From positions 1 to 64,000 of the forward strand of contig CANHQJ010000003.1 in NCBI GenBank assembly GCA_947462875.1: DNA of 64,000 nucleotides, written 5' to 3'. The notes below the pieces were generated by a model that worked only from the letters and a program-made list of their open reading frames with translations, was not told the origin of the DNA and did no database searches. The position numbers and the translations under genes were made by a program. Positions 24,445 through 33,734 of this stretch are shown one piece after another. Every line of letters begins with the position of its first letter. Position 1 is the first letter of the stretch. Source of the stretch: Verrucomicrobiia bacterium (GTDB taxonomy: Bacteria; Verrucomicrobiota; Verrucomicrobiia; Verrucomicrobiales; Akkermansiaceae).

Positions 24445-26361
24445 TTATGGAGCTGAGGAATCGCCGTGTTTTGTGACATATTCTTCCTTCTTCTTCATCG
24501 CCACATCCCGCACGGCACCGGAAGGCAAGGACTCTGCCCAGGCTATCGCAGCATCGGGATCGTAGCGGAACCAACTGGTCGCGAGCCCTGCTGCCGCAGA
24601 GGCGGCACTCTCCCTGTTCGGCAAGGAATTCAGCCAAGCCGCCGCTGCCTCCGGGTGCTCTTCACCCCACTGGCTGGCAAAGGAATCCAGCGCTCCTTTG
24701 GATGGATCTACAGGCACTTCGGCGATGAATGAGGCGTAGTCTGACGCGTGCTGCCCCAGTGCTTGACCGATCTCAGATGTCCATTGGTCCTGAGGAAGTT
24801 GCCGCAGCAGCTCGGTGCGTCGTGCGATGTCTGACGCGGGGATGTTTGCGATGATTTTTGCGAGCAAAACGCCGCGCATCTGCCCAGGAAAATGCGGCAG
24901 TTGCGTGAGCGCTGTCTCGGGATTCGCCTGCGCTGCTCGGGTAGCGAGTTTTTCCAGGATGCTGTCATCATCGGGAGCGGAGGCATCGCTCGCCCAGATG
25001 GCGGCGACAGCGAGACAATCTTCTGCTGACCAGTGACCGGATTCCCTGCTGATCAGTTGCGCAGTGATACTGCGTTGCCAAGCAGCATCACCGCCCGCCT
25101 CGGCAGTCAACTCCCTTATGCCGGCGATGAGCCCTGCGGGATCACGGGGAAGTTTTTCCGCCAAGGCCGCAAGCACCCGCAACCTCATGCCGTTGTCCCT
25201 GATGCTGCCATGGAAAAATTCTTCGAATGGATTTCCCGGTGGCTCCGGCTCCTCCGTCACGGGCGCTGCCTGCGGTGGATCGGCAAAGGGATCGTATGCC
25301 ACATTCGAAACGGCAAAGGGATCATCGATTGAAGTAGTGTCTTGTGCGAAGAAGGTTTCGGTTTCCCTGAGAAGCTTGAGTGCTGCCATGGGATCCGATT
25401 CGGCAAGATGGTAAATGATGGACCCTGGTGCCGTTTGATTGAGATCATTGTGGTGAGTCAATTTCGCAGCATCCAATGCCCTCAGTGCCGCATGAGGATC
25501 CTGTTCGGCCAAGACACACAACCAAGCATGCTTGGCAAAATTGCGCAATTGCGGGTCGGCGATGCCATTCACCCATTCGTCGATGGGAGGATGGCTCGGT
25601 TTCCACCCAGCCACAACCGCTTGAAATGCCGTAAAAATCCCATCAGGATGATTTCCCACTTTCCATTGGAGACAGGCATTGCCAGCAGCGACGGCATCGG
25701 TCTTGGCAAGGCTGGCAATCGCGGCCACCCAGTCATCCGAGGTAGAGTGATGCTCACTTATTTCCTTAATCCCCTCAGGATTCCATGATAAGTAAAGCAA
25801 GGGATGCTGCTCGGCAAGAGCTGCCGATATGGCTTCAAGGAAATAAGCATGAGGTTTTCGTGTCTGAGGCTCCGTGAGCATGGCGTATGCTGTATCAGGC
25901 ATCAATTCTGCCATGACCTCGGCCGCCCACATGGGATAGAAGGAACCGTCACCCGACGCCTGCAAAAAACCATCGAGGTCTTTCACCATCCACACGCCGT
26001 ATGCCCAGCGCAGCGCTGCTTCCGCATTCGGCGTGATGCCATTTTCATAGTTCTTGTCGTAGGGAAAGAGCTCATCCCATTCCGCGATCAGTTGCGGGAA
26101 ATCAGTGACCTTGCCTGCTTTCATCCGCTCCATCCACAAGGCACGCGGCGACCCTGGAGCGAGGCCTGACACAGAACTCACGTGCGCACTTGATGCCGAC
26201 TGCGAGTCTTTGTCAGGCGCTTGCCAAGATTTGAGTGAATGCCCGAACCGCCAACCACCCACAGCGCAGACGACCACTCCGGTCAGCCACAAAAAGAAGT
26301 GATTGCGATTCCTGAAAAGCACCAGACCATGCTGCCCTTCATCGCTGAAATAGCAAGGCAT
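24445..26361 (-). CDS. Membrane-anchored helical-repeat protein, Verrucomicrobia type (copy 1)
   Basis: 638 residues. A single transmembrane helix near residues 22-38 (HFFLWLTGVVVCAVGG) is followed by a long solenoid of helical pairs with repeated phrases such as DPMAALKLL, HPEAAAAWLNSLPNRE and DPDAAIAWAESLPSG. It resembles unnamed Verrucomicrobia families; function unknown. It forms a two-gene operon with the related gene downstream. By eye this pair is less GC-rich than neighbouring housekeeping genes. Confidence 0.6.
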   Translation of the reverse strand: MPCYFSDEGQHGLVLFRNRNHFFLWLTGVVVCAVGGWRFGHSLKSWQAPDKDSQSASSAHVSSVSGLAPGSPRALWMERMKAGKVTDFPQLIAEWDELFPYDKNYENGITPNAEAALRWAYGVWMVKDLDGFLQASGDGSFYPMWAAEVMAELMPDTAYAMLTEPQTRKPHAYFLEAISAALAEQHPLLYLSWNPEGIKEISEHHSTSDDWVAAIASLAKTDAVAAGNACLQWKVGNHPDGIFTAFQAVVAGWKPSHPPIDEWVNGIADPQLRNFAKHAWLCVLAEQDPHAALRALDAAKLTHHNDLNQTAPGSIIYHLAESDPMAALKLLRETETFFAQDTTSIDDPFAVSNVAYDPFADPPQAAPVTEEPEPPGNPFEEFFHGSIRDNGMRLRVLAALAEKLPRDPAGLIAGIRELTAEAGGDAAWQRSITAQLISRESGHWSAEDCLAVAAIWASDASAPDDDSILEKLATRAAQANPETALTQLPHFPGQMRGVLLAKIIANIPASDIARRTELLRQLPQDQWTSEIGQALGQHASDYASFIAEVPVDPSKGALDSFASQWGEEHPEAAAAWLNSLPNRESAASAAAGLATSWFRYDPDAAIAWAESLPSGAVRDVAMKKKEEYVTKHGDSSAP

Positions 26362-27849: not shown

Positions 27850-28560
27850 ATGAAACTACTGAGCCTCGCCCTGTTTCTGATCCTCCCGCTTTCCGCCCAA
27901 ACGAAACGCGGCGAACGCAAGTCCTTGCTCGATAATGACCCGCGCGTGGTCTATCTGACCGATATGCCGGACAAACAGATCGAGCTCATGATCATCAAGG
28001 AAGCGCCGGTGTTTTCGGATGTCGATGGCAAGAACAAGCTCGGCACCATCCAGGCCAACCAGAAGGTGAAAATCGAGGCCATCACCGACAAGGCCTACAA
28101 GGTCCGCGGCAAGGGCACGCGCGATGGCATCGCCGGCTGGGTCGGCCCCTGGGCCTTTGCATCGAAGGACCCGCAATTCGTCGAGAATTTGAAAAAATTC
28201 TACACCCGCCAACTGGAGGTGAACAAGATCATCGCCGAAAACGATGTGGCCATGGGCATGACCACCGATGAGGTCGCGAAATCGTTAGGCCAGCCGACCA
28301 AGAGCTCGCTGCGCCAGACTCCGGACGGCCAGAGTGGCAAGTGGGAGTTCATCGATTACGAAGAGCAGAAAAACTACTCGCTGGTGCGCGATCCCGTCAC
28401 CGGCAATATGTTCCGTCAACTCGTCAGCGTGACGCAGATCGAGAAAGGCAAACGCGTGGTGGAATTCACCAACGGTCTGGTCAGCGCCATCGAGGATGCC
28501 GAAAGCCGCCAAGCCGACAACGTCCGCATCATCGTCCCGCCGTTGGTCTTTGGCTGGTAA
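27850..28560 (+). CDS. Secreted SH3-like domain protein
   Basis: 236 residues. A signal peptide (MKLLSLALFLILPLSAQ) is followed by a bacterial SH3-like segment (about 40-100: VKIEAITDKAYKVRGKG...GWVGPW) and a later part containing GMTTDEVAKSLGQPTKSS, which resembles the repeat of BamE/SmpA-like proteins. Probably a periplasmic envelope protein. The frame stays open upstream across the antisense of hemL, but the signal peptide fixes the start at 27850. Confidence 0.65.
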   Translation: MKLLSLALFLILPLSAQTKRGERKSLLDNDPRVVYLTDMPDKQIELMIIKEAPVFSDVDGKNKLGTIQANQKVKIEAITDKAYKVRGKGTRDGIAGWVGPWAFASKDPQFVENLKKFYTRQLEVNKIIAENDVAMGMTTDEVAKSLGQPTKSSLRQTPDGQSGKWEFIDYEEQKNYSLVRDPVTGNMFRQLVSVTQIEKGKRVVEFTNGLVSAIEDAESRQADNVRIIVPPLVFGW

Positions 28561-28567
28561 TCGCAGG

Positions 28568-29554
28568 ATGACCACCACGCCTTCGCCGAAAATTGACGGC
28601 CACGTTCACCTCGTGGGCAATGGTCGCTCGGGCTCCGGTTGCTGGATGCGCATGGGCGGCTGGCACAGGATGATGGGGGAAATGATGCGCCGCAGCATCG
28701 GCATGCCTGTCAGCGTGACGGATCCGGATTTTGACCGCATCTACGTCGAGCGACTGCTCCGGCACGTGCGCGAGTCATCGCTCGATCACGCGCTCTTGCT
28801 CGCTCAGGATGAGGTTTATCACGCCGATGGCCGCAAGCGCGATTTCGGCTCCTTTTACGTGCCGAATGAGTATTTGTTCGAGGTCTGTGAGAAGCACCCG
28901 GAATTTCTCCCCTCCCCCTCCATCCACCCCGCGCGGCCCGATGCGCTGGAGGAGCTCGACCGCTGCCTCGACCGCGGTGCCCGCGCGCTGAAGCTCCTGC
29001 CGAATTGCCACGACGTCCACTGCTCCGATCCCTGCTACGATCGTTTCTGGGAACGGATGGCGGAGGCCGGGCTGCCGCTACTCGCGCACACCGGCGGAGA
29101 AATGACGGTGCCCGTCGCCAATGCCGCCTACCAGGACCCGCGCACCCTGCGCCGACCGCTCGAAATCGGCGTGAAAGTGATCGCCGCGCACTGCGCCAGC
29201 AACAGCAGCTTTTGGGATCAAAATTATTTCACGGAACTGCAACAGATGATGCACCGGTTCCCGAATCTCTACGCCGATACCAGCGCGCTGAACACCCCCA
29301 TGCGCAGCGGCATCCTGCGCGATGCCCTCCATACCGTGCACGCGGACCGCTTGCTCCACGGCAGTGATTTCCCCGTGCCCATCGGCACCTGGTACGCCTG
29401 GCTGCGCGGCCTCATCGATCACGACGACCGCCGCCAGGCCGCCCGCATCGAAAACCTGTTGGAGCGCGACTATTTCCTCAAACGCATGGCGGGATTTGAG
29501 GAAACCCACTTCACCCGGATCAGCGATGTGCTGCGGCCGTGGACGCAAAGCTGA
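28568..29554 (+). CDS. Amidohydrolase_2-family metal-dependent hydrolase
   Basis: 328 residues, a TIM-barrel hydrolase. It has the N-terminal metal motif DGHVHLVG, a central PLLAHTGGE, VIAAHCAS and the C-terminal aspartate motif LLHGSDFP. The substrate is not evident. The first 60 residues have an unusual Met/Gly/Arg-rich insert (GCWMRMGGWHRMMGEMMRR). The last 34 bp of conserved sequence at its 3' end are repeated exactly at 30448-30481, beyond the next gene, indicating an insertion or exchange at this gene's tail. Confidence 0.75.
   Translation: MTTTPSPKIDGHVHLVGNGRSGSGCWMRMGGWHRMMGEMMRRSIGMPVSVTDPDFDRIYVERLLRHVRESSLDHALLLAQDEVYHADGRKRDFGSFYVPNEYLFEVCEKHPEFLPSPSIHPARPDALEELDRCLDRGARALKLLPNCHDVHCSDPCYDRFWERMAEAGLPLLAHTGGEMTVPVANAAYQDPRTLRRPLEIGVKVIAAHCASNSSFWDQNYFTELQQMMHRFPNLYADTSALNTPMRSGILRDALHTVHADRLLHGSDFPVPIGTWYAWLRGLIDHDDRRQAARIENLLERDYFLKRMAGFEETHFTRISDVLRPWTQS
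29509..29542 (+). repeat. 34-bp direct repeat, left copy (amidohydrolase 3' end)
   Basis: Begins CTTCACCCGGATCAGCG and encodes the FTRISDVLRPW end of the amidohydrolase. It is identical to 30448-30481. The two copies are 939 bp apart and flank the secreted-protein gene at 29621. Confidence 0.8.
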
Positions 29555-29620
29555 TAACGCATTTTTTCCGAAAAGCCTTGACCCGCAGGATACGAGAGAT
29601 TTCTACTTTCGTTGTTACCC

Positions 29621-30433
29621 ATGTCATCGTCTACAAAGCGATTTCTATCCATCACGGCAGGTCTCCTTATAGCGTTGGTCCTGCATGGCAAGGTTCATGC
29701 GGCAAGGGTCACGATTGAATACGTCGCGCAAGCAAGTACGGTAACCGGCCAACCGTTCGGCCTCACAGTGCCGCGACTCACCCAGGTGAAAGGCTACATG
29801 ACTTACGAAACCAACACCACCGACCTCAGGCCTGCGGATTCCATGCGCGGAGACTTTGTCATGGCGGGAACCTGGGATTTTCGTGCGGAGTTTTTAGGAA
29901 AAGTCATCAGAGGATCGGGAACAGCATCGGCTTCCACCAATCTTTTCGGCTCACCCACCTTGCGCTTCAATGATGGAGATACTGATAGCAGGTCCGGCAT
30001 CATGTCGTTTGACGGCATCCCAGATTCCACCATTGGTTTGGGTTTCAGTATTTCAGGTCAAGCCAAAGACCTGCCCACTGACAAGCTGCCCATCAACTTC
30101 ACATTCAATCCGCCGCCGCAAGGAGCATCCCATACGTTCGTTCTGGAAAATCAATCGGGAAGCATGCTCCTGCAGTTCGTGTCTTTCCGCCAAGTCGATC
30201 TGAAAATCCATTCCGTCGCTCGCATGGGAGGCAATGTGGAAATCGTTTGGTCATCCGCGGAGGGAAAGCGCTACGAACTTGAATTTTCCACCGACCTGCA
30301 AAACTGGACAAAAATCCGCACCAATCTCACGGGAACGGCACAGTCCACAACATTGATCGACCCGATTGCCACACGCTATTCAGGAAACCCTCCTAGCAAC
30401 GGATTTTACCGAATCCTTGACCCATTGTTCTGA
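29621..30433 (+). CDS. Secreted protein, probably inserted, unknown function
   Basis: 270 residues. A signal peptide (FLSITAGLLIALVLHGKVHA) precedes a beta-rich region, then a C-terminal segment YELEFSTDLQNWTKIRTNL that matches a short module common at the end of Verrucomicrobia secreted proteins. No catalytic residues recognised. The gene lies between two exact copies of the amidohydrolase 3' end and is visibly lower in GC than its neighbours. A TTGACC box at 29578-29583 could drive it. I read it as a recent acquisition. Confidence 0.6.
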   Translation: MSSSTKRFLSITAGLLIALVLHGKVHAARVTIEYVAQASTVTGQPFGLTVPRLTQVKGYMTYETNTTDLRPADSMRGDFVMAGTWDFRAEFLGKVIRGSGTASASTNLFGSPTLRFNDGDTDSRSGIMSFDGIPDSTIGLGFSISGQAKDLPTDKLPINFTFNPPPQGASHTFVLENQSGSMLLQFVSFRQVDLKIHSVARMGGNVEIVWSSAEGKRYELEFSTDLQNWTKIRTNLTGTAQSTTLIDPIATRYSGNPPSNGFYRILDPLF

Positions 30434-30447
30434 GAGGCGAACACACT

Positions 30448-30481
30448 CTTCACCCGGATCAGCGATGTGCTGCGGCCGTGG
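30448..30481 (+). repeat. 34-bp direct repeat, right copy (remnant amidohydrolase tail)
   Basis: An exact copy of 29509-29542. In the matching frame it encodes FTRISDVLRPW and then PRK and a stop, where the intact gene has TQS and a stop. The copy is therefore a second, slightly different gene end, not only a target duplication. It lies in the 135-bp gap before the aldehyde dehydrogenase gene. Confidence 0.75.
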
Positions 30482-30532
30482 CCGCGGAAATGATCACCCT
30501 AGCGGGCTAGCGCAGCCCGACACAGTTCTGTC

Positions 30533-30561
30533 TTGTGATTTGAGGAATGCTGCCCTAGATA
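30533..30561 (+). promoter_or_regulatory. Putative promoter of aldehyde dehydrogenase, near-leaderless
   Basis: TTGTGA (30533-30538), 17-bp spacer, TAGATA (30556-30561), then only 7 bp to the ATG at 30569. Transcription would begin at or next to the start codon. Confidence 0.45.
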
Positions 30562-30568
30562 CTGTCTC

Positions 30569-32050
30569 ATGTCCGCCAAGTCCCGCACACGCACGCCTGC
30601 GCGTGAATTGCTTTTTGGAAGTTTATGGGAATACGATCCCGCACCGGAGACGTCGTCGCCGCAGTTGCAGGATCGCTACACGCTTTTCATCAATGGCAAG
30701 TGGGTGGCTCCCAAGACGAAAAAATTCTTCGCGTCGATCAGCCCGCGCGATGGCAAACCGCTGGCGGAAATCGCGCTCGCAGGTGCCGCCGATGTGGATG
30801 CCGCGTATCAGGCGGCGGCGGCGGCCTTTCCGGCATGGAGCAAGCTGCCGGGTGCGGAACGGGGAAAATATCTCTATCGCATCGCCCGCTTGCTGCAGGA
30901 CCGCGCGCGGGAATTCGCGGTCGCTGAAACGCTCGACGGCGGCAAGCCGATCAAGGAATCGCGCGACTTCGATGTGCCGATGGCGGCCGCGCATTTTTTC
31001 TATCACGCCGGCTGGGCGGACAAGCTCGACTGCGCGATGCCGGGCAAACATCTCGCGCCGCTCGGCGTGGTCGGCCAGATCATCCCGTGGAATTTTCCCC
31101 TGCTGATGCTGGCCTGGAAGCTCGCGCCCGCCCTCGCCTGCGGTAACACCGTGGTGCTGAAGCCCGCGGAGACCACCTCGATCACCTGCCTGAAATTCGC
31201 CACCATCCTGCAAGAGGCCGGACTGCCTCCGGGCGTGGTGAATTTTGTCACGGGTGCGGGGGAAACCGGTGCCGCGGTGGTGAATCATCCGCTCGCGAAA
31301 AAAATCGCCTTCACCGGATCGACCGCCGTGGGCAAGGGCATCCAGAGAGCGCTCGCTGGCACGGGGAAAAAACTCACGCTGGAGCTCGGCGGCAAGGCGG
31401 CGAACATCATTTTCGAGGACGCCGCCATCGACCAGGCGGTGGAAGGCATCGTCAACGGCATCTTTTTCAATCAAGGCCACGTCTGCTGCGCGGGATCGCG
31501 CTTGCTGGTGCAGGAGTCGATCGCCACGGCGGTGATGCAGAAATTGAAAATCCGCCTGCGCAGCCTGCGCGTCGGCGATCCCATGGACAAGAATACCGAC
31601 ATCGGCGCGATCAATTCCCACAAGCAGTGGCAAAAGATCGATGAGCTCGTGCAAGCGGGCGTTGCCGAAGGCGCGGAGCTCTATCAGCCGCCCTGCCAGC
31701 TGCCGAAGGATGGCTACTACTATGCGCCTAGTATTTTCACCCATGTCAGCCTCAGCCACCGCATCGCCCGCGAGGAGATTTTCGGCCCTGTTCTCTCGGT
31801 GCTGACGTTCCGCACACCGGAAGAGGCGGTGGAAAAAGCGAACAACACGCCCTATGGCCTCAGCGCCGGTGTGTGGACGGACAAGGGCTCGCTCGCGATG
31901 AAAATGGCGGCGGAGCTGAAAGCGGGCGTCGTCTGGGCGAATACCTACAACAAATTTGATCCGACTTCGCCCTTCGGCGGCTTCAAGGAATCGGGCTTCG
32001 GGCGCGAAGGCGGCAAGCAGGGCTTGCTGGAATACGCGGAACTGATCTAA
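30569..32050 (+). CDS. NAD(P)-dependent aldehyde dehydrogenase
   Basis: 493 residues, standard length. The motifs are PWNFPLLMLAWKLAPALACGNTVVLKPAE, FTGSTAVGKGIQ, the catalytic glutamate of LELGGKAANI and the catalytic cysteine in NQGHVCCAGSR. It oxidises an aldehyde to the acid; the substrate is not defined by sequence. A sulfatase gene follows 10 bp downstream, suggesting joint use in carbohydrate breakdown. Codons for GYYYAPSI contain a copy of the 16-bp dyad (31718-31733). The TAA stop is in CTAAC. Confidence 0.9.
   Translation: MSAKSRTRTPARELLFGSLWEYDPAPETSSPQLQDRYTLFINGKWVAPKTKKFFASISPRDGKPLAEIALAGAADVDAAYQAAAAAFPAWSKLPGAERGKYLYRIARLLQDRAREFAVAETLDGGKPIKESRDFDVPMAAAHFFYHAGWADKLDCAMPGKHLAPLGVVGQIIPWNFPLLMLAWKLAPALACGNTVVLKPAETTSITCLKFATILQEAGLPPGVVNFVTGAGETGAAVVNHPLAKKIAFTGSTAVGKGIQRALAGTGKKLTLELGGKAANIIFEDAAIDQAVEGIVNGIFFNQGHVCCAGSRLLVQESIATAVMQKLKIRLRSLRVGDPMDKNTDIGAINSHKQWQKIDELVQAGVAEGAELYQPPCQLPKDGYYYAPSIFTHVSLSHRIAREEIFGPVLSVLTFRTPEEAVEKANNTPYGLSAGVWTDKGSLAMKMAAELKAGVVWANTYNKFDPTSPFGGFKESGFGREGGKQGLLEYAELI
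31718..31733 (+). repeat. 16-bp dyad TACTAT-N4-CTAGTA (in aldehyde dehydrogenase)
   Basis: TACTATGCGCCTAGTA, one mismatch from perfect symmetry. The last codon, AGT, is an unusual serine choice in this GC-rich gene. Confidence 0.6.
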
Positions 32051-32060
32051 CAAACCCATC

Positions 32061-33734
32061 ATGAAAAATCCATGGAAATCCCTCGTGCTGTCTCTCCTGA
32101 CCAGCGCTCCCTTGCTGGCGGCCGATGCCGCGAAACCGAACATCCTGCTGATCTGCGTGGATGACCTCAAGCCGGCCATCGGCTGCTATGGCGACACGTT
32201 CGCCAAGACGCCTAACATCGATGCCCTCGCGAAGCGCGCGGTGGTGTTCGATCGCGCGTATTGCAATCAGGCGGTCTGCGCGCCCTCGCGCAACGCCCTC
32301 ATGGCCAGCCTGCGTCCGCAGACCTTGGGCATCTATGACCTCGCCACGAACTTCCGCCAATCCCGCCCGGATGCCGTCACCATGGCCCAGCATTTCCACC
32401 AATCCGGCTACAAGACGCAGGCCCTCGGGAAAATCATGCATGTCGGTCACGGCAACAATGAGGACAAGGCCTCGTGGGATGTGCCGCATTTCCAGGGCAA
32501 GACCGTCGGCTATGCCCTGAAGGAAAACCAGGCCCCCACGCGTGAGGGTGCCTTGTTCGATAACAAACGCCCGGATCAACTGCCGCGCGGTGCGGCCACG
32601 GAAGCGGCGAATGTGTCCGATGACACTTACAGCGATGGCCAGATCGCGGCCGAGGCGATCCGTCGTCTGCAAGCCGCGAAAACGGACACACAACCGTTTT
32701 TCCTCGCCGTCGGATTTCTCAAACCACACCTCCCCTTCGTCGCGCCGAAGCGTTACTGGGACCTGCACGATCCGAACAAACTGCCGCAACCCGAACGACT
32801 CACCCCGCCCGACGGCGCGCCCTCTTACGCACCTCAATTCGGCGGCGAGCTGCGCAATTACGCCGATATGCCGGGTGGTAGCACGCCCTTGTCACCGGAG
32901 CTCACCCGCCATCTCATCCACGGCTACTACGCCGCCACGAGCTACATGGACGCGCAGTTGGGCAAGGTCCTCGATGAGTTGAAAAAACTCGATCTGGAGA
33001 AAAACACGATCGTCGCGCTGTGGGGCGATCACGGCTGGCACCTCGGCGATCACGGCATGTGGTGCAAGCACACCAACTACGAACAAGCGACCCGCATCCC
33101 GCTGCTGGTCGCCATCCCCGGCGGCAAAGCGGCTCATGCGAAGGCATTGGTGGAAACCGTCGATCTCTATCCCACTCTCGCCGAACTGGCCGGGCTGCCC
33201 GCGCGCGAAGGTCTGGACGGAAAAAGTTTCGCCGCCGTGGTGCGCGGAACCGCCGACAAACATCGCGAGTTTGCCACGCACGTCTATCCGCGCCAGAACA
33301 TGATCGGTCGTGCGGTGCGCGATGAGCGCTACCGGCTCGTCGAATGGAAAAAACCCGGTGCCGATGCCTCCACGGCGGAATACGAACTCTACGATTACCA
33401 GGCCGATCCCGGCGAAACCAAAAACCTCGCCAAGTCACAAGCGGAACTGGTGAAAACCCTCGCCGCCCGTCTCCAAGCCATGCCCGAGGCCAAACCGCAG
33501 CTTAAAGCCGCCGCCGCTGCCGATGCGCCCAAGCGCCCGGCTGCCAATCAGGACCGCGCGGCGATGTTCGCACGTCGCGATGCCGACAAGGACGGCAAGC
33601 TCACCAAGGAAGAATTTCTCAGCCAACAACCTGACCCCCAGGACGCCCCCGCGCGCTTCACGCGTTTTGACAAAGATGGCAATGGCTTTCTAACAAAAGA
33701 GGAATTTGTCAACGGTTCTGCCGCGAAGAAGTGA
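32061..33734 (+). CDS. Secreted sulfatase with C-terminal EF-hands
   Basis: 557 residues. A signal peptide (LVLSLLTSAPLLAAD) is followed by an iduronate-2-sulfatase-like domain. C73 in C-A-P-S-R is the residue converted to formylglycine; PNILLICVDDL supplies metal ligands, and GDHGWHLGDHG completes the site. The end carries two EF-hand calcium loops (DADKDGKLTKEEF near 505, DKDGNGFLTKEEF near 534), unusual for the family and probably structural. It should desulfate polysaccharides outside the cytoplasm, alongside the aldehyde dehydrogenase 10 bp upstream. An anaerobic or FGE-type maturase would be needed elsewhere. Confidence 0.88.
   Translation: MKNPWKSLVLSLLTSAPLLAADAAKPNILLICVDDLKPAIGCYGDTFAKTPNIDALAKRAVVFDRAYCNQAVCAPSRNALMASLRPQTLGIYDLATNFRQSRPDAVTMAQHFHQSGYKTQALGKIMHVGHGNNEDKASWDVPHFQGKTVGYALKENQAPTREGALFDNKRPDQLPRGAATEAANVSDDTYSDGQIAAEAIRRLQAAKTDTQPFFLAVGFLKPHLPFVAPKRYWDLHDPNKLPQPERLTPPDGAPSYAPQFGGELRNYADMPGGSTPLSPELTRHLIHGYYAATSYMDAQLGKVLDELKKLDLEKNTIVALWGDHGWHLGDHGMWCKHTNYEQATRIPLLVAIPGGKAAHAKALVETVDLYPTLAELAGLPAREGLDGKSFAAVVRGTADKHREFATHVYPRQNMIGRAVRDERYRLVEWKKPGADASTAEYELYDYQADPGETKNLAKSQAELVKTLAARLQAMPEAKPQLKAAAAADAPKRPAANQDRAAMFARRDADKDGKLTKEEFLSQQPDPQDAPARFTRFDKDGNGFLTKEEFVNGSAAKK

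Follow-up and report, generated by a model that had tools for sequence, protein, structure and literature searches.

A secreted-protein gene inserted between two copies of a 34-bp amidohydrolase gene tail in an Akkermansiaceae genome

Based on the comparison of a window of 64,000 nucleotides from a Verrucomicrobiia bacterium (Akkermansiaceae) with the corresponding region of its relatives, we show that a single foreign gene for a secreted protein entered this lineage between an amidohydrolase gene and an aldehyde dehydrogenase (ALDH) gene, after the split from the nearest relative among those compared (G004, with 92% amidohydrolase identity), and that the shared amidohydrolase tail is present, with its last 34 bp, on both sides of the gained gene. 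The insertion is genuine, recent and lineage-specific; what was inserted is a mobile single gene, and 34 bp of the target were duplicated.

The duplicated gene tail and the empty site in relatives

The amidohydrolase gene (28568-29554, plus strand) belongs to the Amidohydro_2 family (Pfam PF04909, E 2.8e-21), encodes 328 residues and has orthologues with 76-92% amino acid identity in six genus relatives. The part coding for its C-terminus contains the first copy (29509-29542, plus strand) of a 34-bp exact direct repeat, CTTCACCCGGATCAGCGATGTGCTGCGGCCGTGG, the second copy of which (30448-30481, plus strand) starts 939 bp further on and runs into the native gene end, CCGCGGAAATGA, and into a native spacer that can be aligned to G004. 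The inserted unit (29509-30447 or, equivalently, 29543-30481, plus strand) measures 939 bp. The repeat had been described, with this spacing, in an earlier note on this DNA, and we recovered it at the same coordinates as a unique pair: with 3 mismatches allowed, the 34-mer has only these two matches in the genome, the chance expectation for such a repeat pair within 6 kb is about 3e-10 in 1.14 Mb, and the only other direct repeat in the window that reaches a length of 20 nt is a 20-mer pair with copies 41 kb apart. Reading the frame through both copies also confirmed the two different endings that had been pointed out, since the protein ends in ...RPWTQS* via copy 1 and would end in ...RPWPRK* via copy 2. 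The new gene end and stop, ACGCAAAGCTGATAAC (29543-29558, plus strand), come from the insert and are native-end-like; the last 12 nt of the amidohydrolase gene (29543-29554) are insert-derived, and the host gene retains a complete end.

In G004, the gene order is SH3-like gene, amidohydrolase, aldehyde dehydrogenase, sulfatase and glycerate-kinase-like gene (neighbouring genes are named by reading of their translations, save where a family search is cited), and the inserted gene is absent; in a second relative (G001) the order is the same, again with a single amidohydrolase tail and without the insert. The ALDH gene (30569-32050, plus strand), which is the native right neighbour and keeps its place in both genomes, encodes a protein with 96% amino acid identity to that of G004 and 94% to that of G001, and the 34-bp repeat has one related counterpart in each of them. 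The G004 tail, ATTTCACCCAGATCAGCAAAGTGCTACGGCCTTGGCCGCAGCACTAATCACTATACG, aligns with copy 2 and the downstream sequence of the window, and the spacer from the amidohydrolase stop to the ALDH start is 75 bp long both in G004 and after copy 2 here, from which it follows that copy 2 and the sequence downstream are native and that the PWTQS end after copy 1 is insert-derived. On the same alignment and spacer, native sequence lies to the left of copy 1 and to the right of copy 2, and the addition amounts to 939 bp. These two relatives, with one tail, the same flanking genes and no insert, bear out the proposal of the earlier note that something had entered the 3' end of the gene and restored it, as well as its expectation of a single tail at the empty site; both copies in all relatives, which it had named as contrary evidence, is not the arrangement found.

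Nucleotide identity to G004 stays at about 90% until the last 100 bp, with no mosaic step on either side, and close to the junctions it lies within the range found along the region. Replacement of the amidohydrolase by a distant allele was considered and is ruled out, because there is no identity step against G004.

It is highly improbable that the repeat was left behind when an old tandem duplicate of the amidohydrolase gene decayed, or that it is an artefact of an assembly in 39 contigs. The repeat itself, taken alone, would suit either; however, against the old duplication (also raised in the earlier note) and the artefact, no amidohydrolase sequence precedes copy 2 beyond the short tail, the relatives are single-tailed, and the two copies sit well inside a contig of 244 kb, where the outer flank of each is native.

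The inserted gene and its relatives

The inserted gene (29621-30433, plus strand) has the same orientation as the host amidohydrolase gene, and its stop codon lies 14 bp ahead of copy 2. It encodes a 270-residue predicted secreted protein from a rare family, with a signal-peptide-like N-terminus, and its composition (52% GC and GC3 of 0.58, against GC3 of 0.81 for the amidohydrolase and 0.78 for the ALDH gene, with 58% GC in the genome sample) agrees with the low-GC secreted-protein gene that had been noted between the copies. A Pfam and NCBIfam search with the protein gave no family above the cut-off, no relative was found among viral contigs and plasmids, the structure was predicted poorly (mean pLDDT of 52.7), and searching the PDB by fold yielded nothing usable; an Rfam search of 28000-32500 also gave no match. 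Upstream of the gene, the TTGACC string that had been singled out as a box is present (29578-29583, plus strand) as a possible -35 element, and TTGAC is likewise found upstream of the homologues in three other genomes (G003, G009 and G029), but the promoter scan of the upstream region returned no full sigma-70-like promoter that passed. The inserted gene likely brings its own, putative, promoter.

Relatives of the inserted gene, at 52-72% identity, occur in 7 of the 260 family genomes, and the named records among them come from Akkermansiaceae, Akkermansia and other Verrucomicrobiota metagenome bins. The neighbours of the gene differ in each of four genus genomes, being the amidohydrolase and ALDH genes here, blaI and a nitrilase gene in G003, an LpxH-like fusion gene in G005 and an FkbM-type methyltransferase gene in G009. 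Additionally, the empty site for the G003 copy is held by G008 and G009, in which blaI adjoins the nitrilase gene with no insert, so that the gene moves by itself; on an evolutionary time scale, it is a mobile single gene.

The surroundings of these other copies are varied. In G003, the relative is flanked by an imperfect 23-nt direct repeat, TAAAAAATC...GATTTTGCC (L033, about 1440-1462 and 2545-2566; P 0.014 in a shuffle test), in G005 there is only a marginal 15-mer, and at the G009 insertion no flanking repeats were found. In G029, a 76-nt direct repeat, 82% identical, lies on both sides of the relative (L067, 852-927 and 2684-2759); it probably belongs to the dispersed repeats of that genome, as the same locus holds a third stretch similar to it. 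Finally, G005 contains two 95% identical alleles of the relative on separate contigs (L063 and L065), one of them frameshifted, and the differences between the two are clustered in patches.

The two junctions and the route of insertion

The sequence that follows copy 1 on its right, ACGCAAAGCTGATAACG, agrees with the native end, CCGCGGAAATGATCACC, in 10 of 16 positions once the first base is passed (29544-29559), in-frame TGA included; this match is short and was spotted post hoc, with P 0.0038 against random genome positions. To the left of copy 2, the similarity is only weak (8 of 16 positions, P 0.03). We tentatively favour, with a confidence that falls a little short of even, an insertion that took place in one step and made a long target duplication, in which a homologous left join was combined with an illegitimate right join, probably during the uptake of foreign DNA. 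The incoming DNA would have borne the gene beside a divergent amidohydrolase end, and the homologous left join would have switched from recipient to donor at about 29542, while at the illegitimate right join the DNA just beyond the stop of the new gene would have been fused to the recipient tail at 30448. In that case the two 34-bp copies would come from the recipient itself, and would be identical for that reason. Such a two-join account would explain why there is a gene-end likeness to the right of copy 1 and no clear likeness to the left of copy 2, and the one-sided, left-homologous picture is weakened by the 8 of 16 matches at the latter. The donor arrangement that it supposes (the gene behind a divergent amidohydrolase) was found in no genome. 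The genome encodes a ComEC-type uptake protein (ComEC domain), competence of the organism being putative. The double recombination with a foreign allele that the earlier note had offered comes close to this account, save that a homologous look is confined to the left side, the right side looking illegitimate.

The joins may also both have been illegitimate, with non-homologous foreign DNA taken up at a break that was staggered or re-replicated, 34 bp of target copied onto both sides in the process and the resemblance of the gene ends due to chance, which we regard as somewhat unlikely. This route requires no amidohydrolase donor bearing the tail, its outward signature is that of the "insertion with long target duplication" of Helicobacter pylori restriction-modification genes (Nobusato 2000, as cited in PMC1643837 and PMC3031569), and the G003 insertion is flanked by a weak imperfect 23-nt repeat as well (P 0.014). 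Against it, the 10 of 16 similarity with its in-frame stop is left to chance (P 0.004), and the Ku end-joining protein was looked for in the genome and not found.

The third possibility, which like the second would end in a similar product, is a Campbell-type single crossover, in which a small circle carrying the gene and a short amidohydrolase tail would have recombined through the 34-bp identity, by the action of RecA or of an integrase in trans, with the repeats as attL and attR. The anatomy fits such attachment sites and the restoration of the gene, integration of circularised linear DNA by this way is documented (PMC3240628), and the genome encodes tyrosine-recombinase domains (PF00589), with three strong and two partial hits, all on other contigs. 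Nevertheless, we consider the crossover unlikely, given that there is no recombinase gene in the insert or in the window ORFs read at 25-37 kb, that the ORFs read behind the amidohydrolase gene in five other relatives include no integrase and show no integrase hotspot at the gene end, that the 34-mer is unique to this site in the genome and that the relatives of the gene elsewhere stand without an amidohydrolase tail.

The hallmarks of mobile elements were also searched for in the insert itself. It holds one gene, with no recombinase, integrase or transposase and no integrase family match, in agreement with what had been read from the sequence earlier; its ends carry no terminal inverted repeats that we could find, and the 14 bp between the stop and copy 2 contain no pair forming an attC-type inverted repeat. 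The integrase-type cassette of the earlier note is possible but has nothing positive in its favour: a recombinase is found neither in the insert nor close to it, terminal repeats and further copies of the 34-mer are absent, and the ORFs read behind the amidohydrolase gene in the five relatives include no integrase. No new mobile element is needed to explain the insertion.

A second tail duplication and comparison with known systems

The scan for direct repeats covered 1.14 Mb of sampled stretches, or 29% of the genome, and contained one other gene-tail duplication (G000:C1:71315-71399 and 73482-73565; L101, 11315-13565), of 85 nt at 87% identity, with a 36-bp exact core that ends in the TGA of an alpha-2-macroglobulin-like gene (by translation reading). 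Its copies flank a single gene for a 646-residue beta-helix-like protein, which is patchy in distribution (5 of 254 family genomes), so that both cargoes come from rare, patchily distributed families. G004 lacks the whole stretch of 6.3 kb in which this gene lies (71411-77690); copy 1 looks native on both sides, and there is extra similarity to the left of copy 2. The search for further 34-bp-flanked cassettes, which the earlier note had proposed, came out in two ways: the 34-mer occurs nowhere else, and one tail duplication with a 36-bp core is present in the 29% sample. This shows that the pattern is not unique, yet the second site is messier and is no exact repeat of the window case. A recurrent process in freshwater Akkermansiaceae, by which single secreted-protein genes are put behind resident genes with the last 34-85 bp of these being copied, seems to us very doubtful.

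The other nearby direct-repeat hits of the scan were set aside as repeats within proteins, pairs of similar genes next to each other, a minisatellite of the ATCACTG type and a tRNA-like array. Scattered copies of a short ATCACTGCTCACTGATCACT-type repeat are found at G000:C3:166875-176601, and a tandem tRNA-like sequence (GGTTAGAGCAGCCCCGAC...GGTTCAAACCCCACCGGCCCTAC) occupies a contig end (G000:C1:1-514, L098), in which ARAGORN found no tRNA. The minus strand of the window (24445-26361) encodes a 638-residue protein that, by eye, looks similar in style to two of the neighbours of the second site (C1:73608-75596 and 75560-76987), and these perhaps form a lineage-expanded family.

The site in the window is a fresh and well-preserved example of a single gene acquired with no mobile element to be recognised. 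It comes from an organism other than Helicobacter and concerns no restriction-modification gene, and the empty site is available in a close relative. Such cases help to separate DNA uptake and repair from unrecognised recombinases as the source of long target duplications. They also carry a warning for annotation, in that a neighbouring insertion can swap the C-terminus of a gene.

Some integrative elements take the 3' end of a gene as their attachment site, and the window case is like them in the duplication of the target gene end and in its restoration with slightly different last residues; unlike them, it has no integrase, measures only 0.9 kb and has no sister element at the same site. Insertion with long target duplication was reportedly described by Nobusato et al. 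in 2000 for restriction-modification genes of H. pylori. As cited in PMC1643837, PMC3031569 and PMC3154945, these insertions share with ours a foreign gene missing in a relative, a long direct duplication of the target and no transposase of their own. The present case differs in its cargo, a predicted secreted protein instead of a restriction-modification system (an association of this class in the literature, and not a mechanistic requirement), and in its target, a gene end of which the left copy continues into a divergent end that resembles the native one.

Homology-facilitated illegitimate recombination, known in the competent bacteria Acinetobacter baylyi, Pseudomonas stutzeri and Streptococcus pneumoniae, combines one homologous with one illegitimate join (PMC3240628). 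The account favoured above follows the logic of this process, which would explain one homologous-looking and one unrelated junction around an insert of about 1 kb; the window case carries a duplication, whereas the published products of that process generally carry a deletion (PMC3240628). Taken with these systems, the site clearly exemplifies a kind of insertion that is known but little understood.
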